In this document: in pieces, positions 6,685 through 60,987 of the stretch
Numbering within the stretch: the first letter of the stretch is position 1
Layout of the letters: every line of letters begins with the position of its first letter
DNA from: Carallia brachiata
Lineage: Eukaryota; Streptophyta; Magnoliopsida; Malpighiales; Rhizophoraceae
Length of the DNA: 64,000 bases
Direction: 5' to 3'
NCBI GenBank assembly: GCA_021464245.1
Contig: JADCRB010000057.1
Location: 440,370-504,369 of the forward strand
Notes under the pieces: model-generated
What the model saw: the letters and a program-made list of their open reading frames with translations, nothing else
What the model was told of the DNA's origin: nothing
Database searches by the model: none
Made by a program: the position numbers and the translations under genes

Positions 6685-6733
6685 ATAGCAAACACTTCCA
6701 AAAACCTTGAAGTGACCAGCAGATGGTTTGGTT

Positions 6734-8756
6734 CAATACCAAGCTTCATGGGGAGTTTCATCTTTGAGAGCCTTTGTGGGTAGTTTGTTCAACAAGTACA
6801 CTGATGTACTGGCAGCTTCAGCCCAAAAGGTTTTGGGTATTTTCTTCTCAAACAAAAGGCATCGAGTCATCTCCATTATTGTCCTGTTTCTCCTCTCACA
6901 TACCCCATTTTGTTGGGGTGTATGAGGAGCTGTGTATTGCTGCTGTATTCCAGCTTTCTTGCAAATTTCCTGAAATGTGTGAGAGGTAAACTCAGCACCA
7001 TTGTCAGTCCTTAGAGCTTTGATCCTTGCTCCTGATTGATTCTCTATCCAAGCTTTGTAGTTTTTGAAGACACTTGCTGCTTGACTCTTTTGCTTTAGGA
7101 AATAAATCCAGCAGTATCTTGTCATATCATCAACAAATAATATGAAATACATGCTCCCATTTAGTGAATCTGTGCTCATAGAGCCACAAATATCACTGTA
7201 GACAAGTTGCAGATTTTCATTGCTCCTCCATTGTTGATCAGTTGCAAAGGGAAGTCTTGTTTGTTTCCCTTGCTGACATGCCTCACAGGTTGCTGCAAGT
7301 CTTTCAATTATTGGCAAATCAAGTATCATTTCTTTTCTTTGTAAGCTTTGCAGGCTTGCATCATGTACATGCCCTAATCTCTTGTGCCATAAAGTGTTGA
7401 CATCAAGAGAAACATGCATTGCAGTATTCTGAAGTTGATTCATGTCAACCTGAAAGCTCTTGTCTCTCATGGGAACAAATATAAGCTTAACATTAGAGGA
7501 ATCATATATAATACATGTTTTGTTTCTGAATTCAAGTGCATAATTCTTCTCCAAGAGTTGCCCTACACTTAAAAGGTTTTGATTGACATTAAGAACAAAA
7601 AGAATATCAGGAATCAGTTTGATACCTGTCCTGGTTTGCACAACTGCAGTTCCTTTTCCTTGCACTTGTATGTATTCTCCATTACCAATTTTAACTCTTG
7701 AAGCATAGTTTCTGTCCAGGGTCTTGAACACAGAGAGATTTGGTGTCATGTGGTTAGTGCAACCACTGTCCACTAGCCAAATCTCAGAGGTTTTGGTTGA
7801 TGAAGTTGTTTCTGCCATGAATAAACGCTCCTCAGCTTCTTTTTCATCATTATCTGCAACCTGTGCTTGCTGTTGTGTGGATTGAGCCTGCTTATTCTTG
7901 GGACAAACCTTATCTCTATGCCCTTTTTCATTGCAATTTCTACACACAATATCTGGTCTCCACCAGCAAAACTTGGGCAGATGGTTTGTCTTTTTGCAGT
8001 ATGTGCAGGGAGGATAAACTATCTGTGAAGTACCAGCTTCAGATTGCCCTCCTTGCTTCTTTGTATCTTGCTTCTTTTTCTTCTTTTGTTGTGATTTTTC
8101 AGTTTGCTTAACAGGCAAAGCATTTTCTATTTGCTCCTCCTGTCTCATCAACCTTCTCTGCTCCTGAGCTTGTAGGGCATTTACAAGCTCACACAAAGTA
8201 ATTTTTGTCAGATCCTTTGAATCTTCAAGGGAAGCAATCTTGGACTCAAATCTCTCAGGTATGCTAACAAGTACCTTTTGCACAATACTTGCATAAGTTA
8301 GTTCTCCTCCAAGAATTCTGTATTGATTGACTATCTTCATCAACCTGTCTACATATTCTTTGATCTTTCTGTTTCTTTCATCTTTAGCAGCTCGTATTCC
8401 CTTCTCAAGTTTAAAAGCTGCATTGTTCTTGTTTTTTCTATTCCAGCATATTCCTCTTTTAGCTTTTCCCATGCTTGTTGAGCTGTCTCACAAGCCATAA
8501 TTCTGTTGAATATGGCTTCTATGACTCCTGTGAAAATACATGTCAGGGCCTTGAATTCTTTTGAGGCTTGTTCACTGTGATTTTTAAGCTGGGCCATGGT
8601 GGGATTTGTTGGTAGTGGTTGTATAGCTCCTCCATTCTCTGTGACCTCCCATAAATCAAAGGCCTTGAGATATGCCTTCATCATAATTGACCATTGAAGA
8701 TAGTTTTCTCCTGAAAATTTGGGTGGTGGAGGTGGAGAGAAGCTTAGAGAAGCCAT
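6734..8756 (-). pseudogene. copia gag-protease-integrase (disrupted)
   Basis: Gag probably starts at 8756 (MASLSFSPPPPPKFSG); the longer frame upstream, from 8870, is non-conserved leader. The gag core runs through LYLKAF- and AWEKLKEEY-like blocks, then a frameshift near 8360-8400 moves the reading to the next frame, which continues KIKEYVDRLMKIVNQYRILG. Two zinc knuckles follow: C-x2-C-x4-H-x5-C near 8007 and a canonical CRNCNEKGHRDKVC near 7944-7903. The aspartic protease active site is DSGCTNHM near 7770. GAG-pre-integrase (RLGHVHDASL) and the integrase core follow, with catalytic Asp in YSDI, Asp in RTDNGAEF and Glu in QQNGVCERRNR. The frame ends at an in-frame TGA at 6731-6733 inside the integrase C-terminus, after which the same frame resumes. 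Gag packages RNA, the protease matures the polyprotein and the integrase inserts the cDNA. The lesions make this copy dead. Confidence 0.9.
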
Positions 8757-9341: not shown

Positions 9342-11738
9342 TCAATGCTCCAGCATCATAATCATCAGTTGCTCATCTTCCATGTCTACCCTTTCATCTG
9401 CAGCATCTTGTAGCTGCAATGCCATCTCAAGGTTTCCAAGAACGTCGCCCATTGATGGTCTATCAGCTCGGTTATCAGCCAAGCACTTAACAGCAATACT
9501 AGCAAAAGCATCGAGGCAGTCCAATGCGATTTTTCCTCTCAGATATGGATCTACCATGCGATGGATTGTCCCATTTCGATGACAAATCAATGCCCACTGT
9601 GCCAAGCTAATCTTCTCTTCATCTTCCTCAACCATGGGTTTCACGGCCGGCCTTGCAGACAAGACTTCAAACAAGACCACCCCAAATGAATAAACATCCG
9701 ACTTCTCAGTTAATCTTTTACTTCTGTAATAATTAGGGTCCAAGTATCCAAATGTTCCCTTCACCTCTGTGCTAACGTACTGATGGCCGTGTGATTCCGA
9801 GTGGCAAATTTTTGATAGGCCGAAATCCGAGACCTTGGCCACCCAATCATGATCTAGCAGTATGTTTGTCGACTTGATGTCTCTGTGAATGATGGTGTGC
9901 TTCGTGCCAGTATGGAGGTAGTGTAATCCCCTGGCAGCACCTATGCAAATGTTAAGCCTCATGTTCCATGACAATGGTGGATTGTTAGTATTGTAGAGAT
10001 GATCGCGGAGAGTGCCACCGGCCATGTAGCCATAGACCAGGATTAGCTCATTGTCATCCTGGCAGAAGCCAAGCAGGGAAACCAAGTTCGTGTGACTGAA
10101 TGTTGAGAGCAACTCAATTTCATTTTGGAACTCCTGGACTCCTTGGCGGGACTCCCGATTTTTGCGCTTGATGGCCACTTTGGTTACTCCCCCATCGATC
10201 AAGCCTTTGTAAACCTTGCCAAAGCCGCCTTCGCCAATTATGCAAGCTTCACTGAAATTGTTTGTGGCCGCTCTGATCTCTTCCAATGCAAATTGACGAC
10301 AGCATTCTGATGATATTACCGGGCGCTTCTTTACATTCCTGTACCTCATTGGCAAAACATTTAGATTCTTCACAATCACTGACTTGTAAAATATCAAACA
10401 TAATAGAATTATGGAAGCAGAGCCACCCAAAACACCAAAAATCAATTTTCTTGAGGGCGTCTTCTCCCTCTCTTTTTCCACTTTCAGTTGCAAATGTGCT
10501 GCAAGATTGCCATTTCTGTCACTCATTTTCGCAATCTCAATTCCATTCAGTATGGCATCTGCAAATTTAGGCTTCGAGTCTATATTTGGCTGCAAGGCAA
10601 TAATGATATCTTGCCTTTCCCCCGCCCCTTCTGAAATATTGACAAAGTAATCTCTGTAAATCGCCACCGATGGCTTACCTGCCAAAGCAATCAAATCCAG
10701 GCTCTTTTCTACCGTACTATTGTTGATATGTACCTTGAAAACCCTTTGATTCACCTCTGTTACCCCAAATTCTATCTCACAAAAATGAAGTCTAACAAAA
10801 TATTCAAAGCCTGAATCAACTGAAAATGCCCAAATCAGATTGCTATTCATGTTTACCGCGTCATGGCTGCCCATCGTCCTTGCTGTGCTATACAAATCCC
10901 CAGGTGCGCCATACTGCTCGGGTCTCCAAGAAGGGTACACTAAGTAATCTGGTGACGTGCTAATGACCATGCCTGCGTTGGAACTGGACATGTAGCTCTG
11001 GTCATTGACCCCATTCCATAAATAGTCTCTAGCTGTCCCGCCTACGTTGATTCTGTAAAGCATCTCAAGAACAGGCTGATCATGAATAGAGCTGAGATCG
11101 GAGTAATTTTCGTTTGCAGAACTATTGTAGAGATTGGCGAACATCGGAAGAATCTCTATCCCATTTACAAAGGCAAAAGCATTAGTAATATTAACTGATG
11201 GGATGAAGCTGATGTTCAAGGTTTGATCTTTCAAGTTCACTGCATAATCTTTAGTAAAATAAGTCAATGTCAAGGTATTGGCAGTGACATAAGGGCTGAA
11301 GTTGTCTAAGAGAGTGTAATGACCGGTTATGACAGAGAAACAGGCCTTGGAAATATGGCCCATGCCGCCAGAGTAAGAAGCTGGATAGAAGTGAAATCTT
11401 ACATACTTCACCCCGGGGGACGCAGGGAAGGAGTAGACAAATGTAGAGCGAGAGGCGCGTGCAGTCGAGTATGGTATTCTGGGGATCTCATTACTTGCCG
11501 ATGTTGAAACTACCATGCTTGTTTTCGTTACATATTCAGGAGGAATATACTCTGAACTTGCGTCTCCAGTCCAATGTTTTCCATTGAATGATGAAGATTG
11601 TGCTGATCCACAGTCCAGGGTTATATTTTCTGGGGGCAGAGCTGAAGATTTGAGTAGGCGGCATAGACACAACAAGGTGATGATAGCTGAGAGATAAAAG
11701 TCTTTGTTTTTCCGTTCCATCACGGTGGCAATAAGCAC
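9342..11738 (-). CDS. CrRLK1L-type malectin-like receptor kinase, complete and intronless
   Basis: This is a single 798-codon frame. A signal peptide lies at about residues 12-33 (the start could equally be Met7, at 11720, just before MERKNKDF). Two tandem malectin-like repeats cover about 36-405 and include the conserved ITLDCGS start and the later RLHFCEIEFG. A membrane helix lies at about 432-453. The Ser/Thr kinase covers about 495-770: glycine loop GEGGFG at 502-507, VAIK lysine 524, HRD aspartate 620, DFG at 638-640, GTFGYLDP at 661-668 and RPSM at 760-763. All catalytic residues are present. The length is close to the family norm of about 850. Members (FERONIA, THESEUS, HERCULES types) sense cell-wall state or RALF peptides at the plasma membrane. 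I cannot assign a specific orthologue. It sits between two LTR retrotransposons, with copia about 60 bp 3' of the stop and gypsy about 385 bp 5' of the start. Confidence 0.92.
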   Translation of the reverse strand: MLIATVMERKNKDFYLSAIITLLCLCRLLKSSALPPENITLDCGSAQSSSFNGKHWTGDASSEYIPPEYVTKTSMVVSTSASNEIPRIPYSTARASRSTFVYSFPASPGVKYVRFHFYPASYSGGMGHISKACFSVITGHYTLLDNFSPYVTANTLTLTYFTKDYAVNLKDQTLNISFIPSVNITNAFAFVNGIEILPMFANLYNSSANENYSDLSSIHDQPVLEMLYRINVGGTARDYLWNGVNDQSYMSSSNAGMVISTSPDYLVYPSWRPEQYGAPGDLYSTARTMGSHDAVNMNSNLIWAFSVDSGFEYFVRLHFCEIEFGVTEVNQRVFKVHINNSTVEKSLDLIALAGKPSVAIYRDYFVNISEGAGERQDIIIALQPNIDSKPKFADAILNGIEIAKMSDRNGNLAAHLQLKVEKEREKTPSRKLIFGVLGGSASIILLCLIFYKSVIVKNLNVLPMRYRNVKKRPVISSECCRQFALEEIRAATNNFSEACIIGEGGFGKVYKGLIDGGVTKVAIKRKNRESRQGVQEFQNEIELLSTFSHTNLVSLLGFCQDDNELILVYGYMAGGTLRDHLYNTNNPPLSWNMRLNICIGAARGLHYLHTGTKHTIIHRDIKSTNILLDHDWVAKVSDFGLSKICHSESHGHQYVSTEVKGTFGYLDPNYYRSKRLTEKSDVYSFGVVLFEVLSARPAVKPMVEEDEEKISLAQWALICHRNGTIHRMVDPYLRGKIALDCLDAFASIAVKCLADNRADRPSMGDVLGNLEMALQLQDAADERVDMEDEQLMIMMLEH

Positions 11739-12118: not shown

Positions 12119-12123
12119 CTCAT

Positions 12124-12742
12124 TGTAAACAAATAAATTTATGAAAAAAAAAAAAAAATATATGGTTGGCAGCTGCGAACCTAATTAAATGCCACCAACC
12201 ATTTGGTTGGTGGCAGACAGGCATGAGGAGGCCTTATAAATTGGCCTCCCCAATTGAATGAAATGCAAAAAAAAAAAAAAAGAAGGGGCAGCGAAGCGTA
12301 GTGCAGAAAGAAGAAAGAAAAAAAAGAAAGAAAGCAGCGAAGCAAGCGCAGTAAAAAAAAAAAAGAAAAATCCGGTTGGGATTAAGCCTTATACGGCCCT
12401 CAGCAAAATCCAGGCAACTCATCCGAAAATAAGTCCATTCGACCCTCGGTGAAATTAAGTCAGATCGGCTCAGATCAGATCTCTGCGGTTCATAACCGTA
12501 GTCAAAACGTCCAAATCAGACACAGTTTCAGCCTATCCAATTCAAGAAAAAGCGGTGGAAATTATTTCTGTCAAGATCAAACTCGTGCAGCCCTTGACGG
12601 AGTAAAAAAAAGGAACACTAATCGGAGGATCTACGGAGATCGACCCCACATAAATTTTCTTTTATTTTTACAATTTTTATTTGTAATTTGTTGTTTGTAT
12701 TTTCGAGTTTAATTGTTTTAGACTCGAAATTTAGGCTTTACA
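12124..12742 (+). repeat. 5' LTR of the gypsy element
   Basis: A 619-bp TG...CA repeat. Its U3 holds nested inverted repeats: a nearly palindromic GGTTGGCAGCTGCGAACC (12164-12181, one arm base changed), CCACCAACC / GGTTGGTGG (12192-12213) and GGAGGCC / GGCCTCC (12227-12249) enclosing a TATA box. A long purine-rich AAG/A tract follows at about 12268-12368. Confidence 0.93.
12235..12241 (+). promoter_or_regulatory. TATA box in the 5' LTR
   Basis: TATAAAT sits exactly in the 9-nt loop of the inverted repeat GGAGGCC / GGCCTCC. It is the best candidate for the element's own promoter, given its U3 position upstream of the transcribed leader. The equivalent in the 3' LTR is at 21457-21463. Confidence 0.6.
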
Positions 12743-12748
12743 AATTTT

Positions 12749-12766
12749 TGGCACGCTCGGTGGGAC
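12749..12766 (+). promoter_or_regulatory. Candidate primer-binding site of the gypsy element
   Basis: TGGCACGCTCGGTGGGAC starts six bases after the 5' LTR. A TGG start just after the LTR is the expected form of a site matching a tRNA 3' CCA end, and similar TTTGGC... sites are usual in Tat elements. I cannot assign the tRNA from memory. Confidence 0.45.
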
Positions 12767-12791
12767 AACTTCACCTCCCACCTCTTGTTCC

Positions 12792-12962
12792 TTAAAAAAA
12801 AAAAAAGAGGTAAAAAGGGAGCCGAGAGAAAAAAAAAAGTAAAAAGTAAAAAAAGTAAAAAGTAAAAAGTAAAAAGTAAAAAAAAAGGTAAAAAAAAAGT
12901 AAAAAGTAAAAAGTAAAAAAAAGGTAAAAAAAAAGTGAAAAAAAAGTAAAAAAAAAAAAAAT
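12792..12962 (+). repeat. A-rich (AAAAAGT)n low-complexity leader
   Basis: Runs of A broken by GT or GGT, in the untranslated leader between the primer-binding site and gag. They probably grew by slippage. Confidence 0.8.
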
Positions 12963-12983
12963 TTCAGGTGTTCTGCACATCAA

Positions 12984-14165
12984 ATGGCACCAAAAAGAAG
13001 TACAGCTGCCGGTACCAACAAGAAGGCAACGGCTCCATTACCTGCATCAACTACCCTACCTGGGTACGCAAGTCCAGAAACCCGGGGACGGACACAATTT
13101 CTTGCCGTCCAAACCCAAAAAAATATCGAAATGGAGAGTCCACAACTCGCACAACAGGATCTCTCCCCTGACTCTCTTACCGTATGGACGAGTCGATCAC
13201 CCACCCCGATCGAAGTTGGGGGCAACACGACGAAGCCTGCTTAACAGAATCCAACTCATTCTGTAGAGATCCACACAGAGCAATCAGAAGAGCTTTCTCC
13301 CCCAGTCTTTCGCGGAGCCTCATCTGTTGCCGTCATGATGACCAACACAACCAGTACAGAGGAAAGAATTTCAGAATTGGAGAATAAAATTTTGTAGCTG
13401 ATCAGAGTCGTGGAGGAAAAAGATCAACAGATCGCCGCTCTCAAAGGAAAAGCCCCGATCCAAATTGATCCCGAGATTCGCGAGGAGCAACCATATCCAC
13501 CCGGTTTCACTCCAGAAGCCACACCAGACGTCTTCACTGCAGAAAAGCGACCAGGTAGTTCTACACAGCTGCCACCCTCAAATTCTGTAGCTTCGCTATC
13601 TGTTCAACAATTGCAGGAAATGATAGCCAATACGATCCGACTGCAACAAGCTGCATCCTTCCAAGGATCACAGATGTACGTCAAACCGTACACCAGACGG
13701 ATCGAAAGTCTCAACATGCCCTTGGGCTACCACCGCCCAAATTTCAACAATTCGACGGACGAGGCGATCCCAAACAGCACATCGCCCACTTCGTTGAAAC
13801 CTGCAACAACGCAGGGACTTACGGAGATCTCTTGTTGAAGCAGTTTGTTCGTTCACTCAGGGAGACCGCTTTCACTTGGTTCATAAATCTTGAACCAGAA
13901 TCAATCGACAGTTGGGAACAGCTACAACGAGAGTTCCTCAACAGATTTTTCAGCACTCGAAGGACGGTAAGTATGATGGAGCTTACCAGCACCAAATAAA
14001 GGAAAAGAGAGCCCGTTGTCGAATACATCAACAAATGGCGTGCCCTCAGCTTGGACTGCAAAGATCACCTGACGGAGATTTCTGCCGTAGAGATGTGCAT
14101 CCAGGGAATGCATTGGGAGCTGTTATACATCCTGCAGGGTGTTAAACCCCGAACTTTCGAATAAC
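12984..14165 (+). pseudogene. gypsy gag (disrupted)
   Basis: The likely start is the ATG at 12984 (MAPKRSTAAGTNKKA). The same frame continues to about 13735 through a coiled-coil-like stretch (EERISELENKI, then VVEEKDQQIAALKG) but is interrupted by TAA at 13242-13244 and TAG at 13395-13397. A frameshift near 13735, before FDGRGDPKQHIAHFVE-type sequence, and another near 13990 break the retrotransposon gag domain. Its blocks FVRSLRETAF, WEQLQREFLNRFF and VTRAHDMKISI are clear in alternating frames. The gag protein would form the particle that packages element RNA. The sequence resembles gag of Tat-type gypsy elements. This copy cannot make the full protein. Confidence 0.85.
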
Positions 14166-15300
14166 TGGTGACCCGCGCACATGATATGAAGATAAGCATC
14201 CAGACTTCCGGAGGCACGGTTCCCATCCAGTTGGACCAGCAAGGGGGCAGAAGGGAGATTAAGAAACCCAACAGCTCCAGAAAAGGAAAAGAAGTGATGA
14301 CTGTTGAAGCTGCACCAGTAAAAGTGGGCGCCAAAGCTAAGGTAAATCCTCCGACGCAAATAACTCAGCCAAAACAACAGGAAAGGCGGAAGGTGACATT
14401 GCGAGAGCTGGAGCAGAAGCAGTATCCATTCCCCGACTCTGACGTCCCCGACATTCTTGAACAACTCTTGGAGGCAAAGCTGATCGAACTCCCAGAGTGC
14501 AAGCGGCCTAATGAAAAGGATCGAGTCAGTGATCCGAGATTCTGCAAATATCACCGGATAGTAAGTCATCCAACCGAAAAAGTGTTTCGTCCTGAAGGAG
14601 CTAATCATGAAGCTCAAAAGCCAGAATAAAATCATTCTGGGCCAGGAAGGCATAACTTCTGCAAACCAGACCACCATCACTTCAAAACCATCAGAAGAGG
14701 TGACACATCATAAGGAGGAGCCGCTCGACAACAAAAAGTCGACAACGGAGAAGGTATATGAAGCTCTCCAAATCCTTCTCGCTAACCCTCAGCTGTTTAT
14801 AGCTCTGCAATCAACAGAAGTGTGGCAAAATCAAGTCAACAATACTCTCCAGACCTCGGCTGAATCACAGCCATCACATGATTCTAACTCAGCGGAGCAG
14901 CAGGCGGCCCAAAATCACGTCAGATGTTACTCTGCTATCTCATTTTCAGATGAGGATCTCCTGCTGGGGTCCAAACCCCACAATCGGCCACTGTATGTAT
15001 CAGGCTATGCGAAAGAACAGAAGGTCCGACGTATTCTGATTGACGATGGCTCAGCAGTCAATATTATCCCAAAATCCACTATAAAGGAGCTCGGCATCGG
15101 CATTGATGAATTATCAGACAGCCGCTTGATGATTCATGGCTTTAATCAAGGAGGATAGAAAGCAATTGGGATGATTCGCTTGGAGCTAACTATCGGTAAT
15201 CTCACTTCTAACACTCTGTTTCATGTGATTGATGCACGTACCACGTATAAATGTTGCTAGGACGACCGTGGATTCATGGAAATGGAGTTGTGCTCTCAAG
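14166..15300 (+). pseudogene. gypsy gag C-terminus and aspartic protease (disrupted)
   Basis: Two overlapping frames (14168-14629 and 14607-15158) carry a linker rich in Lys and Gln, a conserved SDPRFCKYHRIVSHPTEK block and then the retropepsin-like protease with active site Asp-Asp-Gly-Ser-Ala at 15042-15056. A TAG at 15156-15158, right after MIHGFNQGG, interrupts the protease. The flap and C-terminal part (LLGRPWIHGNGVV) follow at 15251 in another frame. The protease cleaves the polyprotein; here it is split by stops. Confidence 0.85.
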
Positions 15301-15995
15301 CCTGCATCAGTGCTTTAAGTATTACAATGGTGGCGTTCAAAAGGTCAATGCTGATTTAAAGCCGTTTGATGATGCTGAATCACATTTGGCGGATGCAATC
15401 TTCTACACCGACACAGACAATCCGAAAATCGTTCCATCAAAAGCTACTTGGACTGGGGGCATCCACAAAAAGGGAAAAGCTGTCGAAGAACCTGCCAATG
15501 TTCAACCCCAGGCTCCAACAAATGAAAAGCTGCCACAGCCTGCTGAACTCCGTCTGAAGGATGTTGCATCTTCAAGCTCCACTCCAGTCCTACGCTATGT
15601 GCCGAAGTCACGACGCTCAGAAGGTCAACCCCTGGGGCAGTCGAAGGCGGCTCACTTCCAGAAAGAAGAACACACGAAGGATTCGATCCTAATGCATACA
15701 AGCTCTTGGCCAAGGCGGGCTATGACTTCTCAAACCCGAGCACAATGAGTACGCTGCCGTCCACACATGGCGCCGCTTCTCAATCATTACAGTCCCGACC
15801 TGGCTTAGGTTATCAGGAGAAGTCACCTGTGCGGATCACGCTAAAGAGCCGAAGCCGAGCAGCTGATGCACGCGCCATCACCACCACCATCAAACAAGAC
15901 AGGCTTATCCAATCAAACAAAGAAGGTGAAGTCAGAGGTTCTGCATTTCATGTCACAATTAGCGAGGAGGCTGAGTCGACTCATCAGATGGTGAA

Positions 15996-18013
15996 GTGAA
16001 GGAGGCTCCCCCGGAACTTGAAGATGGTGGCCAAGCAACTGTTGATGAACTCAAGGAGGTCAATCTTGGCTCTCCGGAAGATCCTCGACCTACATTTGTA
16101 AGTGCTTTACTTACTGCAGAAGAAGAAAGAATATGTTCAGGTATTAAGTCAATACAGGGACGTGTTCGCATGGAGTTACAAAGAAATGCCTGGACTTGAC
16201 CCAAAAATTGCGGTGCATCGTCTAGCAGTAAAGAAGGGTGTTCGTTCTGTCAAGCAGCCACAACGACGGTTCCGCCCGGAACTCATTCCACAAATCGAGG
16301 AGGAGGTGAACAAGCTGATCAATGCGGCTTCATCCGAGAGGTCACCTACCCAACGTGGATTGCCAACATTGTCCCGGTAAGAAAGAAGAATGGACAGTTG
16401 AGGGTATGTGTTGATTTTCGAGATCTTAACAGGCCTGCCCGAAAGATGACTTTCCATTGCCCATAACGGAGATCACAGTCGATGCAACAACGGGTCACGA
16501 AGCATTGTCCTTCATGGATGGTTCTTCAGGCTATAACCAAATCAGAATGGCACCAGAAGACGAGGAGTTGACAGCATTCCGCACCCCAAAAGGTATATAC
16601 TGCTACAAAGTTATGCCGTTTGGATTGAAAAATGCTGGCGCCACTTATCAACGTGCTATGCAAAAAATTTTTGATGACATGCTGCACAAGATTGTAGAAT
16701 GTTATGTTGATGACTTAGTTGTAAAGACTAAGAAGCGCAAAGACCACCTCGAGGATCTCAAGACAGTGTTCGAAAGACTTCGGAGGCATCAGCTCAAAAT
16801 GAACCCTCTCAAGTGCGCATTCGGTGTCACATCAGGAAAGTTTCTTGGGTTCGTGGTGCGCCATCGTGGAATCGAAGTTGATCAGTCAAAGGTTGAGGCA
16901 ATTCAAAAGATGCCTGAACCTAAAAACCTGCACGAGCTGCGAAGTCTACAAGGAAAGCTGGCCTACATTCGCCGTTTCATCTCCAATTTAGCTGGGAGAT
17001 GTCAACCTTTCCATCGGTTGATGAAGAAGGATGTCAACTTCGAGTGGGACGAAGCTTGCAGCAAAGCCTTTGAGAGCATAAAGAAGTACCTTTCCAATCC
17101 ACCAGTCCTAGGAGCTCCAATTCAAGGAAAGTCGTTGTCTACATTGCAGCGCAGGAAAGATCTTTGGGAGCCTTGCTTGCACAGGAAAACGAGCAGGGAA
17201 AGGAAGTTGCCCTGTTACTTGAGCAGAACACTAAACGGTCCGGAGCTGAGTTATTCGCCCATTGAAAAGACATGTCTAGCACTGTTCTTTGCCATTGACA
17301 AGCTGAGGCACTACATGCAAGCTCACACGGTACGTCTCATTGCCAGAGCTGATCCTGTCAAATATATCTTATCTAGACCAATCTTGTCAGGACGACTTGC
17401 CAAGTGGGCAGTAATCCTACAAAGCTACGACATTGTCTACGTGCCTCAAAAAGCAGTCAAAGGACAAGCTCTAGCAGACTTCCTTGCAGATCACCCTGTT
17501 CCGTCAGATTGGGAGTTCACAGATGATCTTCCAGATGAAGAGGTCTTTTACATTGAGACACTACCACCATGGACGATGTTCTTTGATGGTGCAGCAAGGC
17601 GTGATGGTGCTGGTGCCGGCATAGTGTTTGTCACTCCTCAACGACAAATACTACCATATGCTATCATTCTCGGTGAGTTATGTTCAAATAATGTTGCTGA
17701 ATACCAGGCTTTGATCATTGGTCTTCAAATGGCTGTCGATATGAAGATTCCAACTATAGAAGTCCATGGAGATTCCCAGCTCGTCATCAACCAACTTACA
17801 GGATTGTATGATGTGAAGAAAGAGGATGCGCCTTACCATCAACGTGCTCGACAGCTAATGGATGAATTTGAAAGCATCACCTTGGAGCATGTGCCTCGAC
17901 GAGAAAACACTCAGGCAGACGCGTTGGCTAACCTGGCCACTTCTCTTGCAAAGTCAGAAATCCAGGCTACAGTTGTTGCCGTATGCCAGAAATGGATAGT
18001 GCCACAAGGATGA
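15996..18013 (+). pseudogene. gypsy reverse transcriptase, RNase H and second RNase H (disrupted)
   Basis: The N-terminal part of the reverse transcriptase (YRDVFAWSYKEMPGLDP) lies in the frame at 16102-16380. After frameshifts near 16320 and 16440, a 518-codon frame (16457-18013) carries the rest: FMDGSSGYNQI, TPKGIYCYKVMPFGLKNAG and the catalytic YVDD at 16703-16714. A connection domain follows, then a frame slip near 17140. The first RNase H ends with SRPILSGRLAKWAVIL and GQALADFLADHP. A second RNase H begins at WTMFFDGAARRDGAG and continues NNVAEYQALIIGL, VHGDSQLVINQL and ENTQADALANLA. Having both a degenerate gypsy RNase H and an archaeal-type RNase H marks the Tat/Ogre lineage. The second one has its Asp, Glu, Asp and Asp residues. 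Confidence 0.88.
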
Positions 18014-19281
18014 TGAAGAAACTACAGCAGCCAACGCTGTATCTGTACGTCTCGCGGAGGACGAGGATTGGCGCCAACCAATCATTGACTACCTACAGCA
18101 CGGGAAGCTGCCGAAGATCGTCGTCATAAAACAGAAATTCAACGACGAGCTCCCCGGTTCATATATCTCAAGGATGCTCTGTATCGAAGGTCTTTTGATG
18201 GAGTTCTACTTCGCTGCCTAGCCAATGAAGAGGCAAAACAGGCTCTCACTGAAGCACATTCTGGTGTTTGTGGCGGACATCAATCGGGGCCTAAGTTGCA
18301 CTTTAACTCAGAAGGATGGGATACTACTGGCCAACTATGGTACGTGATTCAATTGAGTTTGCTAAAACTGTCAAGCTTGTCAATTTCATGCGAATTACAT
18401 ACATCAACCACCGGAGCCACTGCATCCAACTGTCTCATCCTGGCCCTTTGAAGCTTGGGGTCTCGACTTAGTGGGGCCCTTGCCAAAGTCATCCCTAGGT
18501 CACCTGTACATCCTCGCAGCAACGACTACTTCTCAAAATGGGCGAAGCCATTCCACTTAGAGAGGTAAAGAAGGAGCATGTTGCCAATTTCATCCGGACT
18601 CAGCTGATCTATCGCTATGGAGTCCCTCGATTCATCATCACTGATAATGGTAAGCAGTTCTACAACAGCTTAATCGACAAGCTCTGCGAGAAGTTCAAGT
18701 TCAAGCAGTACAAGTCATCCATGTACAATGCCCCAGCAAATGGCTTGGCCGAAGCATTCAACAAGACCTTATGCAACCTGTTGCGGAAGGTAGTCTCTAA
18801 ATCCAAAAGAGATTGGCATGACAGAATTCCGGAGGCATTATGGGCGTATCGTACAACTTACCGGACTCCAACACAGGCGACGCCATACTCACTTGTCTAC
18901 GGTGTCGAAGCAATACTGCCGTTGGAAACACAGATTCCATCCCTGCGCATGGCTGTTCTGGAAGGACTCACACAGGAGGAGAATGCTCGCCTACGTCTGG
19001 ATGAGTTAGAAGCCTCGATGAAAGGAGGCTCGAAGCACAACAGCAACTTGAGTGCTACCAAGCCCGGCTCACCAACACGTTCAACCGCAGGGTCGTCCTC
19101 GATCTTTTCAAGTTGGAGACCTTGTTCTTGCAGTGCGACGGCCCATCAACATGAAGCATCGGCTGTGAAGCTTACTTCCAAATGGGACGGGCCATACTTA
19201 GTAGGAGGCCTACACTCACAACGCTTACATGCTGTCAGACCAAGAAAGCGTCCGAATGCCCAATCAATGGTAAATTTCTGA
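18014..19281 (+). pseudogene. gypsy integrase (disrupted N-terminus)
   Basis: The zinc-binding N-terminal part lies at about 18240-18420 (HSGVCGGHQ, then CQACQFHA) with stops and frameshifts around 18220, 18345 and 18360. The core follows: FEAWGLDLVGPLPKSS supplies the first Asp, and after a slip near 18530 an intact frame (18538-19281) gives ITDNGKQF with the second Asp and APANGLAEAFNKT with the Glu. WAYRTTYRTPTQATPYSLVYG is the usual gypsy tail and is clear here. The C-terminal end (KWDGPYLVGG) is also present. It would insert cDNA into the genome, but this copy is broken. Confidence 0.85.
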
Positions 19282-19289
19282 AACAATAT

Positions 19290-19679
19290 TATGTATAAAT
19301 ATGTTTGAAAAAAAAAATCAAAAAAAAAAAAGAAAGAAAGAAAAAAAAAATCAAAAATCAAAAAAATCAAAAAATCAAAAAAAAAAAAGTTCGGAAGTCC
19401 CGATCTGAAAGTCCAAGCGAAAACCCAAACCCAAAAATCCAAACCCAAACACTTGAGCCCAATTCAGAAAACACAAATCCAAAAGTCCAAACCCAAACAC
19501 TCAACCCAAATCCAAAAAGTCCAAATCCAAACCCAAACACTCGACCCAAATCCAAAAATCCAAGTCTAAAAACCCAAACACTCAACCCAAATCCAATCTA
19601 AAACCCAAAACCCAAAAATTTCAAGTTCTAGACACAATCCAAAACCCAAGTTCAAAATCCAATCCAACTCCTGGCCTGC
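19290..19679 (+). repeat. Low-complexity spacer: A-rich tract, then CCCAAA-type repeats
   Basis: 19300-19390 is nearly all A with TC interruptions. 19390-19670 is built from variants of CCAAACCCAAACACTCAACC and CCAAATCCAAAAAGTCC. The motif is not the plant telomere unit (CCCTAAA). It separates the integrase from the WOX-like frame. Confidence 0.75.
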
Positions 19680-20425
19680 ATGAGTATAAACTGTGAACGG
19701 CCCAAAAATATAAAAGTAACGGAGGGTTTGAGTCTGAAACTCAGCATCAGTCTCAACCGATCTTCACCACATACCAAGATCTTTGCTCCTCTGCCACAAG
19801 AAAGATGGAACCAGTTGCAGAACCTCAAGACAAGGGAAGAAAGATCACCCCGCACAAGGTGGCAACCGACCACGGCACAAACTGCAATTTTGGAGGAAGT
19901 CTTCCACAACAATGGAGGTATTATTCCTAGTGCATCTCAAATTTACCAACTTGTCTCACGATTGCGCCTGCTCAGGGCAATCGAAGGAAAAAATTGTTTT
20001 ATTGGTTCCAGAATCGGAGAAGCAAAGGAAGAACCAGCACTGAGAACTGCTTTTCCAAAGAACAGTCTGTCGTTCCGATAGTAAATCCCACTGGTACAGC
20101 TTCGCCCTCAAATGAAGCAGGTCCGAGTTCTTCCACTGCAATGGTCTCTCCACGGTGTGTTCATCAAAGCCGTAGCCCATGGGAGCATGCATGCTGGTCC
20201 TGGTGGTCTTACGGAGTCAGCCAAGGATTCATCCCTCCTAGGTACTTAAGTCTAGGAGGAATTTTTCTAGCAGAAAGGAGTTATTCCGGCGAAACTTTGC
20301 CTCTCTTTTCAGAATATTCCGACAGCATCAACCAGCTGGAAAGCGACGTCAACGTCGACGTCAACATCATCAGCCCACCAGACGAGGCCGAGCTTGACTT
20401 GGAGCTGCGCTTTGGGCCCCTCTAG
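19680..20425 (+). pseudogene. WUSCHEL-related homeobox (WOX)-like ORF inside the gypsy element, one frameshift
   Basis: Two overlapping frames (19680-20081 and 19994-20425) together read as a WOX transcription factor of roughly 248 residues. The homeodomain spans about 19851-20035: RTRWQPTTAQTAILEEVF, then PSASQI, IEGKN and, in the second frame, FYWFQNRRSKGR. The RW.PT, ILE, IEGKN and FYWFQN positions are diagnostic of WOX proteins. The T run at 19997-20000 is one base short, and this is the only break seen. Further on are TLPLFS at 20294-20311, like the WUS-box T-L-x-L-F-P, and ELDLELRFGPL at the C-terminus, an LxLxL (EAR-like) repression motif. No intron interrupts it. It lies in the element's coding orientation between integrase and 3' LTR. 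WOX proteins control stem-cell and organ identity. Here it looks like host sequence captured by a retrotransposon. The homeodomain is divergent and fits no single clade well. Confidence 0.82.
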
Positions 20426-20445
20426 GACGGCCGACAAGATAAGGT

Positions 20446-20530
20446 GTAACGACTTTGTCAGCACACGGTAACGACTTCTGCAGCACACGGTAACGACTTC
20501 TGCAACACACGGTAGCGACTTTCGTGTCAC
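20446..20530 (+). repeat. 22-bp tandem repeat, about 3.8 copies
   Basis: Copies of GTAACGACTTCTGCAGCACACG start at 20446, 20468, 20490 and 20512, the last one degenerate. They lie just downstream of the WOX-like stop codon. Confidence 0.88.
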
Positions 20531-21338
20531 GCATCAGCTGCTGCCTCTTTTGTCTCTTATGCAGGAAAGGGACGGGGATGACACTACTCGAATCTGCGTA
20601 CCTTCTTTTTTTGACTTTTCAAAAAAAAAAAAAAACTTTATCGTATGTATATATATATTGCATTCCCGAGTTGTATACTCACCCCTCAGCTCTTCTTTCT
20701 CAAAAGAAAATGGCTAGTCTCTGCATTTGTCCCAGAAAGTTCTTTGATCAAGAAGTTGGAGGCGCACGAGCTAAGAAAAGAAGGAGTAGTCTTCCTCGAG
20801 GGATCCCTAACGCCATCGGTGTCATGGAGTTCCAACTACTCTCCTTAGTTCACATCTACTACAGAGGGATGAGACGCTACAATTATCCTAATCTTCCTTT
20901 GGATGCGGCGATGTACGGGGAAGTTCCAACTACTCTCCTTACGTCGAAGCAGACTTAGGAATCATCACTACAGTCAGTCTCTCTGTGTGCCGGTCTTGAA
21001 GTTCCAAGGTCCTGGGCCTTCCTCTTGGGGATGTTCAAGTTCTTTGCCTACCGGATCATCCTCACCAGAGCTTTGGAACTTCAAAGAACCTTTGCCAGCC
21101 ATGGAAGCTCGAACGCACCTGGAGCCAAAACTTCAATTTTTGTATTGGCTGGGCTGCTAACTTCCTCAAGATCATATCGGTTTCCATTGCGATCCAACAA
21201 CAGTTGGATTAGTCGGAGATAGAAGATTTCAACATTCAATGTTCGTCAGAACATCTCAAGTTTCAACCTGTATTTCAAGATTCGGTTCGGATCATTTCTG
21301 TAAAATTTTTCCTTACCGACCCTTGAAGTTGGGGTATT
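20531..21338 (+). other. 3' non-polyprotein region of the gypsy element
   Basis: There is no recognised domain here. A TATATATAT stretch at about 20648-20658 is followed by a short frame from 20710 (MASLCICPRKFFDQ, with a basic AKKRR patch) that I do not recognise. The phrase GAAGTTCCAACTACTCTCCTTA recurs with changes near 20828, 20921 and 21000. The region ends at the purine-rich tract TGAAGTTGGGGTAT, which abuts the 3' LTR and would prime plus-strand synthesis. Confidence 0.6.
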
Positions 21339-21979
21339 TGTAAATAAATAAATTTATGAAAAAAAATAATAATAATAATTAATATGGTTGGCAGCTGCCA
21401 ACCTAATTAAATGCCACCAACCATTTGGTTGGCGGCAGGCAGGCATGGGGAGGCCTTATAAATTGGCCTCCCCAATTGAATGAAATGCAAAAAAAAAAAA
21501 AAGAAGGGGCAGCGAAGCGCAGTGCAGAAAGAAGAAAGAAAAAAAAAAAGAAAGCAGCGAAGCAAGCGCAGTAAAAAAAAAAAAAGAAGCGCAACAAAAA
21601 AAAAAATCCGGCTGGGATTAAGCCTCATACGGCCCTCAGCAAAATCCAGGCAACTCATCCGAGAACAAGTCCATTCGACCCTCGGGTGAAATTAAGTCAG
21701 ATCGGCTCAGATCAGATCTCTTCGATTCATAACCGTAGTCAAAACGTCCAAATCAGACACAGTTTCAGTCTATCCAGTTCAAGAAAAAGCAGTAGAAATT
21801 ATTTCTGTCAAGATCAAACTTGTGCAGCCCTTGACGGAGTAAAAAAAAGGAACACTAATCGGAGGATCTACAGAGATCGACCCCACGTAAATTTTCTTTT
21901 ATTTTTACAATTTTTATTTGTAATTTGTTGTTTGTATTTTCGAGTTTAATTGTTTTAGACTCGAAATTTACGCTTTACA
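21339..21979 (+). repeat. 3' LTR of the gypsy element
   Basis: A 641-bp TG...CA repeat pairing with 12124-12742. Here the first U3 palindrome (21386-21403, GGTTGGCAGCTGCCAACC) and the TATA-enclosing arms (GGGGAGGCC / GGCCTCCCC, 21447-21473) are perfect, while the middle repeat (21414-21435) has one mismatch. Confidence 0.93.
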
Positions 21980-21984
21980 CTCAT

Positions 21985-46802: not shown

Positions 46803-49800
46803 ACTTAACACTACTTTGCCGATACACATTATGCACAATGAACTTATACCTGAGTTTCCTCGGAAGATGCTGGCTTTCTTCCAGTGGCTGCCATCAGCAG
46901 AGTTCTAATAAACATTATGGCCTCAGGACAGAACTTCTTAGACTGTCTAGTGACCTGCATCATAAAGAGAACATATCAACCCCAGAACTGCTACATTTGG
47001 AAAAGGAGATTTCCCAATTGGAACAAGAATCACCAACATCCAAGCTTATTAGGGCACTAAAAAGCACCCATAGCACAAAAGGGTAAAATTGATGCAATAT
47101 TTGACTAGTAGGACTATGCTCAAGTTAGCACTACAACAAGGGAATGAAAGAGAGAGAGAGATGCAAAAAATAAGTTGCTCCTAATAAATAAAAGCAATTC
47201 AAAGTACGCCCCCATAAAAGATGAACCTGCCACAACCAAATGCAAAGTGAAAAAGGAAAAACAAAAACACAAACATTCAGCTTATTTTATTGGACTGGGA
47301 AATAAATAATGGAGCATATCATACGTACAGAGAGAACCATGGTACACAAGAAAGAACCAATTGCTATGTCACGACCAGAAAACATTGGACAACGCATCAG
47401 ATACTCTGACATTAATAATACAGTTGGTGTCATGACAACGTGACGGAAGTCAGAGCATGGGAAAATCATGGACCAGAGCCTCAAGAGACACAATGTTTTG
47501 AAAGACGGCCAACAGCTACTCTCTGAAAGGAACATGTCAACAAATTAGGTTGCTTATAACAAATGCCACAACTTCAGAAATGCAGAGGCAACAACTTGTC
47601 AAATTATCAATACTAACCTGAATTCCTCAGAGTCTCACAAAATTGAGCTCGAGTCCGTAATATTCTTTGACGAGCACATATTGCAGAGAAATACGGAATC
47701 TCCCTACTAATCTCCATTACAGGCTTGACCAGCAAATTCAACAAGTCAAAATTCATTGGCCTTTTACTAGCTAGGACAGCAAAATACTGCAATAATACCC
47801 CATAAAATACCTGAAAAAAGCACAATATCCCACAATACCATTAAGTACGGATGTAGAAGACAACATCATAAAATCCCATCATTTTAATGGCATTTGGTAC
47901 AACAATGTAACCATGAATTACTATGTGACAGTTTAGTAAAATCAAATCCAAAATTAAACCATAGTTTCAAAGCACTCAAAAGAAAGTTTCAAAGACAACC
48001 AGACTGCTTCCTGTACTTGTTCGCTTTCTCTGAATATCATGCAGACTAGATTATTGAAACATTAATTGCCTTAATGATCGACCTATTATTAACCATTTTC
48101 TAAGTGAAAAAATAACAAAATTTTCATCCTTGTCAAATACGTAAACAAAATAACAAGAAAGGACGAAGGGGTGGGAAAAGCAAAGAAATTTACACACTTG
48201 CATTTTCTTCCGATTTTCTGCAGCAAGTTTAGTTGAATTGTGTATCCGAATTCGATTGATTACTACAAACACATCATCATTAGAGCATTGATCCACCAGA
48301 GCACACAGTTCTTCCAAGGTCTTTGGGGCCTCTATTGTATAGGGAATGTTTTGTAGAGTTGAATGCTGTTTACAGTTTGCTTTTATTTTTTTTGCACGAA
48401 AAGATTCCCCATCTTCACAATTCTGAACAACGTTGCCTTTCTCTGAACCCTTTTGGAATTTTGGGCCAATTTCCTCTTCACAATCATCATTGTCACTATG
48501 TCCATTCTCCTCCAAATCTGTGCCAAGATTTTCTTCATCACTCTGTTCCCAGTCTTTCAAAGATAGAGTCCTATCTTCTTCATTATTGTCATAACTACCA
48601 TCATCATCTCCAGATTCTTCACTATCATCATCATCATCTTCTGCATTTTCTGAATCCTCAGAATAATCATCTCCATTCTCAGACTCACCTGTCTCCCTTC
48701 TCGCCAGAATCTCATCAACCCAACCCTTCTTAGTTTTAGGCTCTTCATCAAAAGAAAAGGAATCATCCAGGGCATCTCCAGATATTGACCTTAGCCTCTG
48801 GGTGGATGGCATCCCAGCATCCTCATTCTCTTCATCACTGGAGTCATCAGCTGCAACCATCCGTTTTTGACGCTCTTCCTGTAATAGTGGAGTATAACAC
48901 CGCTAGTTAAGACAATGACATATAAGCTAACTGAATGTGTATGGATGGAAAATTTATACAACAGAGAACAAGGTTCTTTACAATTAACAAAAAGTATAAA
49001 GCAAAATAACCAAACTAAGGACATCCTGCAGGTCAGAAAAACACGTTACTGCAACAATGTTTTTCAGCTTCTCCTTCATTCTCTCATGTTCAAATGCAAT
49101 GAAACTGCTACTAGCAACTGTTAAGAACATAAATTATCGGGTGTGGCATAATGGCAACGACAACTCTCTTAAAAGGAATTGAATTCTAAATCATTTCAAA
49201 GGAAAAAAAAAAGTTCAGTTGTTCCTGGTTCCAGGCCAGTTGTTCATGTAATCAACTCAAAAGTGCTCTACTGTGAATCTTGAAAAAGAGCTGCCTCTTT
49301 TTTATCAAATTAACTTCCCTCGTATATAGAGATCAAGGTTTTTTCAATGCAACAGTTGGAGGTTTTCATCCAGCATTTCTACTTGAAGCTCGCATGAAAC
49401 GCTGGACTGAAAGGCTGAAATTGTCAATTTTTGCACAAAAAGCAGCTCAATAATGCAGATGGCTAAGGCTCAAGATCTGTTCATGGACGAAAGGTCTTTG
49501 TAAATATTGGTTTGATGCATATGTGACAAAACAATTAAAACCTGCAGCTCTACAGTAGCATGACAAGAGGAGTCCACCAACCCAGAGTAACCATTATTGC
49601 ATTAGCATTAATTCACACTTATGTTGAGAAAGAACCGTGCCTCTAACTGCACCAGTCGTTCTGCTTCCTCCTGGGCAATCTCTTCTGGTGTCTTTGTTCT
49701 GTCTGATGGTCGAGCACGCATATCCAATATCATCTCTCCTCTAAGTTTATTGTAGTAATCAGGTTCTTCCTGGCAGAAAATGCAAACAAACAAGTTTTTT

Positions 49801-59688: not shown

Positions 59689-60987
59689 TTAATTCATATC
59701 AAATCCAACAGTAGACTTCAACTTGACCGTTGGAATATTACCATAATCCATTAACGAATAAGACGAAACACAAGCAGCTCCACCTGCAACGGTAACACCT
59801 TGCAGCACATAAAGACTCCCAATTTTGTTAGCATTCAGAAAAATTAGAGAATCTTTAGTAATTGTCAAAACTCCACCTTGAGCTGAAAATACGTACCCAT
59901 TAGTTTCAAGAGTACCCAAAGAGATGATATTCCTTTTCAGGTCCGGAATGTGCCACACATCATAGAGAGTCCTCAATGTCCCGTCAAACATCTTAATCTG
60001 GACAGTACCTTTTCCAGCAACGAAACAAGATGTATTGTTCCCCATAAATACAACTCCACCTTCAACTGAATTATAAGTGGAAAACCACTCCTTACTTGGA
60101 GTCATATGGTGGGAACAGCCAGAATCTAAGATCCATTCAGATTTGGAACTTAAATTATCACCGGTTGCAACAAAAAGAACCTCAGCACTAGAATCATCTA
60201 CTGCAAAACTAGCTTCTCCAGGGGGAGTATCATTCTGCTGTTTATTTCTGAGTTTATAGCACTCAGACTTAATGTGACCCTTCTTGCGACAATAATTACA
60301 GGTCATATTTTTGTGTTTAGATTTATACCTGGATTCATAATTGTCACTACTGGAGCCTGCATTTCTGAACTTTCCTCTTGTGAGCAAACCATCTGCTAGA
60401 ACGACAGAGCTCTCGCCAGATAATTCTTTATCAATAAGCTCTTTAGATAAAAGAGCAGCTTTAACATCTGCGAGAGAAATAGTCTCTTTACCATAAAGCA
60501 GAGTCTCTCGAAAATTCCTATAAGAGGGAGGCAATGAACATAAAAGCCGTAAGGCTTTATCTTCGTCTTCAATTTTGAGATCAATGGATTCGAGATCCAT
60601 AATAATAGAAATGAATTCATCAAGGTGGGACTTGATTGGTGTGCCTTCTGCCATACGAAGCATATACAGGCGATGCTTCAGGTGCAGTCTATTAGTGAGG
60701 GATTTAGTCTTGTACAAAGACTCTAACTTTTGCCATAATCCCAAAGCTGTCTTTTCATGGATGACTTCGCGCAAAACTTCATTAGACAAGCACAATTGAA
60801 TTTGGGCGAGTGCTTTAGCATCCATCTCATCTTTCTTCTCTGCGGTCATAGACTCGGGCATTTTTTCTTTTCCAAGTAAAGCAATTTGCAAATTAGATTG
60901 AGTTAAGAGAGCAGACATCTTTACCTGCCACAACAGAAAACTAGTATTGCGATCAAACTTCTCGATTTCAAATTTTGTTGACGTCAT
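59689..60987 (-). CDS. copia gag-protease ORF, intact, 432 codons
   Basis: Gag of the Tnt1/Tork style covers about residues 1-200, with conserved blocks LLWQVKMSALL, KLESLYKTKSLTNRL, HLDEFISIIMDL and LLCSLPPSYRNFRETLLYG. A zinc knuckle Cys230-x2-Cys233-x4-His238-x4-Cys243 follows, then the aspartic protease with catalytic Asp288 in DSGCSHHM and the C-terminal protease sequence VWHIPDLKRNIISLGTLE. The frame continues to the pre-integrase border (GSLYVLQGVTV) and ends at a stop after about 30 residues of different character, where the internal deletion joined the pol remnant. Gag packages RNA and the protease matures it. No stop or frameshift is present, unlike the element at 4422-9280. The protein could still serve packaging in cis. 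Confidence 0.92.
   Translation of the reverse strand: MTSTKFEIEKFDRNTSFLLWQVKMSALLTQSNLQIALLGKEKMPESMTAEKKDEMDAKALAQIQLCLSNEVLREVIHEKTALGLWQKLESLYKTKSLTNRLHLKHRLYMLRMAEGTPIKSHLDEFISIIMDLESIDLKIEDEDKALRLLCSLPPSYRNFRETLLYGKETISLADVKAALLSKELIDKELSGESSVVLADGLLTRGKFRNAGSSSDNYESRYKSKHKNMTCNYCRKKGHIKSECYKLRNKQQNDTPPGEASFAVDDSSAEVLFVATGDNLSSKSEWILDSGCSHHMTPSKEWFSTYNSVEGGVVFMGNNTSCFVAGKGTVQIKMFDGTLRTLYDVWHIPDLKRNIISLGTLETNGYVFSAQGGVLTITKDSLIFLNANKIGSLYVLQGVTVAGGAACVSSYSLMDYGNIPTVKLKSTVGFDMN

Follow-up and report, generated by a model that had tools for sequence, protein, structure and literature searches.

A WUSCHEL-type gene inside a long terminal repeat retrotransposon

The window analysed here—a stretch of 64,000 nucleotides from Carallia brachiata (contig JADCRB010000057.1, positions 440,370 to 504,369)—contains a whole long terminal repeat (LTR) retrotransposon, and this element carries, in sense orientation between its integrase and its 3' LTR, a gene of the WUSCHEL (WUS) type. 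The element and its cargo comprise the following features, given with window coordinates.

12119..12123, no strand: left target site duplication, CTCAT (direct reading)
12124-21979, plus strand: whole LTR retrotransposon (paired LTRs, 5-bp duplication CTCAT on each side)
12124..12742, plus strand: 5' LTR (TGTAAA...TTTACA), direct repeat with 21339-21979
13559..13999, plus strand: gag fragment (Retrotrans_gag, E 4e-7)
14565..15158, plus strand: protease-like stretch, assigned from position (Asp_protease_2 E 0.25, not significant)
16430..18013, plus strand: pol (RT 2.4e-30, RT_RNaseH 1.5e-16, RVT_3, the second RNase H, 2.9e-23)
18499..19281, plus strand: C-terminal part of the integrase (rve E 3.2e-4; 21.3 bits, below the curated cut-off of 32.6)
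19282..19690, plus strand: linker from integrase to WUS-type gene, A-rich and CCAAACC-rich (direct reading)
19805..20425, plus strand: WUS-type gene, of about 207 codons in open relatives; frame changes ahead of the homeodomain and within it break this copy
19851..20040, plus strand: WUS-type homeodomain, with an approximate end owing to the frame change; its length is 64 residues in open relatives
20291..20311, plus strand: WUS-box-like motif ETLPLFS (ETLPLFP in most open relatives and both host WUS loci)
20390..20422, plus strand: EAR-like C-terminus ELDLELRFGPL (direct reading)
20494-20958, plus strand: second sense frame downstream of the WUS-type gene (MASLC...FFDQEVGGARAKKRRSS), with openness uneven among copies; a Pfam search gave no match
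21339..21979, plus strand: 3' LTR, direct repeat with the 5' LTR
21980..21984, no strand: right target site duplication, CTCAT (direct reading)

A first-pass annotation had described a sense-strand homeodomain of the WUSCHEL-related homeobox (WOX) type between an integrase ending at 19281 and an LTR starting at 21339, within an element flanked by CTCAT. Both the sequence and the coordinates are as described there, and the duplication lies on both sides of 12124-21979. The gene in the window is broken, because its reading frame changes before the homeodomain and again inside it. Taken singly, its two frames match the Pfam Homeodomain profile with E values of 9.6e-4 (19632-20081) and 5.6e-3 (19931-20425), both below the curated cut-off; joined with an X at the shift, they match Protein WUSCHEL (6ry3) with E 7.9e-16 and STENOFOLIA with E 1e-12. 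In an open relative from the same genome (L016), the Pfam homeodomain match reaches E 1.5e-12, above the cut-off. The profile search proposed earlier as a check for a WOX homeodomain is therefore significant, both in the read-through sequence and in the open relative. Moreover, the gene holds a WUS-box-like ETLPLFS and an EAR-like LDLEL end, neither of which was among the features first listed for it.

Within the 16430-18013 frame, RT_RNaseH covers residues 249-333 and RVT_3 residues 385-503, with the integrase downstream; in the window copy, the pol reading is interrupted around the second RNase H. According to the part of PMC6317226 drawn on here, two RNase H domains mark the Tat clade, with the second one placed between RNase H and integrase in angiosperm Ogre/Retand elements. 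The window element has this second RNase H (RVT_3) ahead of the integrase, together with the paired LTRs and target site duplication of an LTR element, and judged by the Ogre/Retand-like place of that domain it is a Tat-clade member of the Ty3/gypsy group. Its two LTRs differ by 18 transitions and 7 transversions over 617 sites, with 26 gap columns—a Kimura two-parameter divergence of 0.042. Plant substitution rates of 1.3e-8 and 6.5e-9 date the insertion to about 1.6-3.2 million years ago.

Resemblance of the element gene to WUSCHEL

Six 10-kb stretches fetched from the same genome proved to be the same element, each with a WUS-type frame of at least about 207 codons. The open element frames start with MEP, like host WUSb and P0005, and end in an EAR-like LDLEL stretch. 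Their 64-residue homeodomain aligns gap-free to WUS, and the seven other host WUS-clade homeodomains have 63 residues. The ETLPLFP of most open copies, found in both host WUS loci (L046 and L049), is replaced by TLQLFP or TLELFP in the other host WOX genes where a WUS-box-like motif was found. WUS proteins gave the best alignment scores against the element homeodomain, which is identical to that of host WUSa at 32 of 64 positions.

The consulted part of PMC7203112 assigns R38, Q89, N90 and R94 of WUS to base reading, W39 to arm docking, and I66 and F85 to dimer contact, and calls F101 a possible WUS-specific feature among WOX proteins. With this numbering transferred to the element by our own count from R38-W39, open copies keep seven of the eight named residues (R38, W39, I66, F85, Q89, N90 and R94). 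WUS-type DNA binding is predicted because the base-reading residues are kept. The element gene thus combines the features by which a WOX-family member is recognized: a homeodomain, a WUS-box with an EAR-like motif, and this set of seven out of eight residues. In a tree of 40 homeodomains over 64 columns (leaving out TE_L029, P0004, P0011 and P0012), the element sequences form a clade with support of 87/92 on a stem of 1.1 changes per column.

Set beside plant WUSCHEL (6ry3; host L046 and L049), the element gene shares the MEP/MDP start, the gap-free 64-residue homeodomain with R38, Q89, N90 and R94, the WUS-box ETLPLFP and the EAR-like C-terminus. In contrast, its recognition helix reads NRRS where WUS has NHKA, F101 is missing and half of the homeodomain residues differ; the whole gene, at about 207 amino acids, lacks an intron between homeodomain and WUS-box and is borne by a mobile element. 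The initial reading of a WOX homeodomain is thus upheld by the homeodomain match (7.9e-16), but needs narrowing, since score and layout make WUS itself, rather than WOX genes in general, the probable nearest relative.

Carriage of the gene across the element family

To what extent the gene belongs to the element family was assessed in the same genome. The homeodomain, used as query, yielded 1348 first-look candidates; scoring covered 150, among which 78 are matches of 183 bp with 49.5-49.6 bits. With the DNA of the gene region as query there were 1265 first-look candidates, and all 40 that were scored (window included) proved 93-100% identical over nearly the full query; an integrase search gave 919 candidates, 40 of them scored. 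First-look candidates are unconfirmed as copies, and no total copy number was derived from them.

The gene region was present in all 63 further aligned loci fetched as copies (window excluded), 62 of which are distinct, as L021 and L054 are one place fetched twice. Of these loci, 29 had been picked for similarity to the gene and 34 for their homeodomain score, so that the count shows only that the gene is constantly seated in the family. Six copies chosen by the integrase search rather than by the gene all carried it as well. The alignment excluded L015, which is the window again, and 17 ordinary host homeodomain loci (L001-L008 and L045-L053). Of the 150 homeodomain matches, 42 were fetched as best matches or presumed copies, comprising 34 element copies and 8 HD-Zip or WOX13-like host genes; no non-element source gene was found among these 42. 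Under a loose rule and with the window included, the frame is open all the way from homeodomain to EAR-like end in 29 of 64 rows, which represent 28 of 63 distinct places.

The WUS-type gene appears, then, to be a standard part of the element family in this genome. Both the suggestion that it is copied along with the element and the proposed alignment of family copies for a shared WOX frame are borne out by the gene region common to all sampled copies. We also observed that L026 and L027 are identical and L075 and L076 nearly identical on different contigs—perhaps as unmerged haplotypes or recent segmental copies.

A missing host intron and long-term divergence

In the element, a single open frame spans homeodomain and WUS-box, with 297 nt between them; in the two host WUS loci the distance is 1060-1167 nt with in-frame stops. 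A host intron is predicted from this gap and interruption between separate open blocks. The absence of the host gap from the element points to capture of a spliced transcript, that is, of a cDNA, for which a missing host intron is the expected sign. The idea that the element took up a stem-cell regulator gene or its cDNA is thereby supported, with the spliced form indicated.

Between element and host WUS, silent sites are saturated, with a proportion of differing synonymous sites (pS) of 0.83-0.88, and the nonsynonymous proportion (pN) is 0.33-0.34; the homeodomains are 55-56% identical in nucleotides. Such saturation with a lower pN is as expected of long constrained coding evolution, which may have taken place inside the element or partly before capture. 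In 2000 neutral walks to the same amino acid identity, the homeodomain frame stayed open in 181, the seven residues were kept in 5, and both held in 1. Overall, the sequence bears strong signs of constraint in the past and no clear sign of it at present.

Interpretation and competing explanations

We consider it probable that a Tat-clade element captured a spliced WUS transcript, kept it as an accessory gene and spread with it, the gene having a putative WUS-like action. The structural and capture part of this account, namely that the element carries a captured WUS-type gene, is very likely; an active role of that gene as a WUS-like regulator is possible but doubtful. In outline, a eudicot Tat-clade Ty3/gypsy element would have taken up a spliced WUSCHEL mRNA long ago, most likely during reverse transcription. 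The captured gene would then have become established in sense orientation, as an accessory gene that follows the integrase and precedes the 3' LTR, a region where extra frames tend to occur in Tat elements, and element movement would have carried it to many places in the genome. Its protein may be expressed from the element transcript, enter the nucleus, bind TGAA/TAAT-type sites through the kept base-reading residues and repress genes through the WUS-box and the EAR-like end; WUS itself represses with TOPLESS-type corepressors. WUS-like action in shoot meristem cells, the source of the germline, might favour copying where insertions are inherited. That the element deploys a WUS-type repressor of its own to keep cells in, or bring them to, a meristem-like state, or to shut off host genes of the niche, so that its copies reach the gamete lineage, is an extrapolation that we regard as unlikely.

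Several observations weigh against this account, and most of them are what would be expected if the frame were cargo without gain to the element, captured perhaps from a diverged host paralogue since lost—an explanation that we hold to be possible, though improbable. Many copies are broken, with the frame open to the EAR-like end in just 28 of the 63 distinct places. Among 36 copies not picked by homeodomain score, internal branches carry 74 nonsynonymous (N) and 39 synonymous (S) changes, with omega (dN/dS) at 0.83 (0.55-1.25), a near-neutral ratio. In the same set, changes fall almost evenly on the three codon positions (35:39:39), wrong frames gave 1.35 and 0.93 against 0.83 in the true frame, which is thus barely distinct, and the C-terminal part is rich in N (32N:7S on internal branches). 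In these 36 copies, whose power is limited, purifying selection on the frame as a whole during the recent radiation therefore went undetected; the first-pass annotation had proposed to look for it as dN/dS below 1. In the homeodomain part, internal branches show 18N:18S and terminal branches 56N:31S—no significant drop (P 0.16). The 30 rows chosen by DNA gave an observed/expected N/S of 0.92 for inner branches and 1.04 for end branches, and fixed differences between two subfamilies number 3N:5S in the homeodomain, 8N:2S in the linker and none in the C-terminal part (P 0.14). A deficit of N in the homeodomain had been seen in the full set of 64 rows (observed/expected N/S 0.41 inner, P 0.003; 0.50 end, P < 0.001), but was not upheld, as neither the 30-row nor the 36-row set has a significant deficit. 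On the end branches, the deficit fits sampling bias because 34 of the 64 rows had been picked by homeodomain score. The long stem of the element clade likewise suits gainless cargo. Against that explanation stand the retention of the seven functional residues, ETLPLFP and the EAR-like end despite saturated silent divergence, and the presence of the gene in each sampled copy, including those selected by integrase. The even internal ratio in the homeodomain also speaks against it, though not significantly below the terminal one, as does the lack of a non-element source among the fetched homeodomain matches.

The WUS assignment and a regulatory link to the LTRs also meet with contrary points. Some WOX3-type homeodomains are identical to the element's at 34-35 of 65 positions with gaps, slightly above the gap-free 32 of 64 for WUS; one protein named WOX2 (P0006) likewise has a 64-residue homeodomain; F101 is lost; and the tree, which backs the place of the element clade among WUS-clade sequences only weakly (70/66), leaves its nearest neighbour unplaced. 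WUS is favoured by gap-free length, alignment score and ETLPLFP; plain identity leans slightly to the WOX3 type. As for the LTRs, the WUS tandem site TGAATGAA lies 3' of a TATA-like box in both window LTRs, but occurs in just 4 of 15 LTR sequences, two of which are the window pair. It ranks 489th of 633 eight-base stretches in conservation and was present in 46 of 1000 shuffles of the window LTR. TTAATCC, which we take to be a TTAATSS-type WUS site, is found in 14 of the 15 (in the window 3' LTR from LTR base 277, minus strand), but there the surrounding stretch is conserved in any case, and the site also turns up in 138 of 1000 window-LTR shuffles; TTAATGG and TCACGTGA were absent from all 15. 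Autoregulation of the element through WUS sites in its LTRs consequently gained no support from the counts of TGAATGAA or TTAATCC in these sequences.

Two further explanations can be set against capture with retained WUS-like action. Homology to host WUS or to its RNA might matter instead of the protein, for instance as a regulatory or silencing decoy working through small RNAs in either direction. Sense orientation and many copies could conceivably yield abundant WUS-like RNA, but the nucleotide identity between element and host homeodomains is insufficient for small-RNA pairing and the conservation lies at amino acid motifs rather than DNA, which makes this very improbable. An assembly join, or a host WOX gene that merely lies beside a retroelement, is scarcely credible at all. 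The near uniformity of the window pol with L009 and L012 in substitutions, combined with many private indels, is suggestive of long-read correction and lends this some colour. However, the paired LTRs and the 5-bp CTCAT duplication on both sides mark the element as no join at 12124 or 21979, a test that had been named for these boundaries, and sampled copies on many contigs have this gene in the same position. For the place of the gene in the element, an artefact is already refuted.

Relation to known elements and wider implications

Capture of a host gene by an LTR element and extra frames in Tat elements are of a known kind; what appears to be new is the family-wide carriage of a stem-cell regulator. 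Tat-clade Ogre/Retand elements with extra open reading frames, as described in the consulted parts of PMC6317226, PMC7264820 and PMC11963269, share with the window element the place of the second RNase H and an extra frame between pol and 3' LTR. The Retand survey, in the portion used (PMC11963269), describes the frames between pol and 3' LTR as antisense and mostly TRP28, in a stretch of 2,933-6,566 bp, whereas the frame of the window element is sense and of clear host origin, and its pol-to-LTR stretch, at about 2.05 kb, is shorter. Host-type domains in several consensus sequences are also known from Gypsy elements: under its filter, the survey in PMC9289625 lists, in the text drawn on, 15 uncommon domains across 121 angiosperm genomes, with an AlkB-type demethylase in Phalaenopsis, B3 in Aegilops and a LONELY GUY-type YgdH in Citrus. 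Cytokinin activity is under the control of LONELY GUY proteins, which thus belong, like the WUS cargo, to a growth-control pathway (PMC9289625, same text). Maize Bs1 and retroviral transduction, as treated in the sections consulted of PMC7264820 and PMC11963269, likewise involve host gene sequence taken up, usually in sense; unlike these, the present family has the gene in each sampled copy.

Neither homeo nor WUSCHEL appears as a word in the main text of PMC9289625 as available here, and the available text of PMC7264820 and PMC11963269 contains none of WUSCHEL, WOX or homeo. Titles and abstract openings of the open-licence literature searched made no mention of a plant retroelement with a WOX gene, and none is reported in the portions of PMC7109043 and PMC6982007 that were covered.

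Two protein searches with the element protein listed plant WOX-type proteins, 4 in one and 21 in the other, with 32-52% identity across 27-76% of the query, and viral contigs gave no confirmed relative. For the host receptor-kinase gene next to the element, the best full-length relatives among named rosid proteins are 55-57% identical; near relatives of this plant are therefore apparently missing from the protein database, and the absence of the element's protein there says little. Among the proteins compared, P0009, P0011 and P0012 (P0009 and P0012 named Ipomoea) are short, diverged WUSCHEL-like proteins that share one homeodomain, and P0009 shares 34% identity with the element protein along 76% of the latter.

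Few plant LTR elements seem to have a host-derived regulator that is carried throughout the family. If the reading in which the element acts on meristem cells to reach the gamete lineage is true, the present family would be the plant counterpart of a retrovirus with a captured growth regulator, but fixed across a whole retrotransposon family. Taken with the LONELY GUY-type cargo of the Citrus elements, it would then suggest that plant retroelements repeatedly target the control of growth and stem cells. Capture of a master regulator of stem cells allows a direct test of whether retroelements steer host cell identity toward the germline. The gene also offers a natural WUS variant for DNA-binding work, with half of the homeodomain changed and the base-reading residues kept. 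Moreover, WOX gene counts in such genomes may be inflated by element copies.

Pol uniformity and window neighbourhood

Between 16000 and 18799, the window pol differs from L009 and L012 by 0.2-0.8% in six of seven 400-bp bins and by 1.3-2.0% in the seventh, and divergence from the same two copies is 3.8-19.1% between 19200 and the LTR end. Against L009, the window pol shows 15 gaps and 16 mismatches. L013 and L014 are less uniform in pol, differing from the window by up to 4.8% and 6.3%. Our guess is that this uniformity stems from long-read correction across copies, which may also have touched the frames; conversion is another possible source.

Outside the element, the window contains the following features.

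9342-11738, minus strand: receptor-like kinase of the FERONIA/CrRLK1L type, open, with Malectin-like and kinase domains, immediately left of the element
6733-8472, minus strand: Copia-type frame with gag and integrase domains (domain matches)
59689-60987, minus strand: Copia-type frame with a gag domain (domain matches)
48051-48860, minus strand: part of a Nop14-like gene (domain matches)
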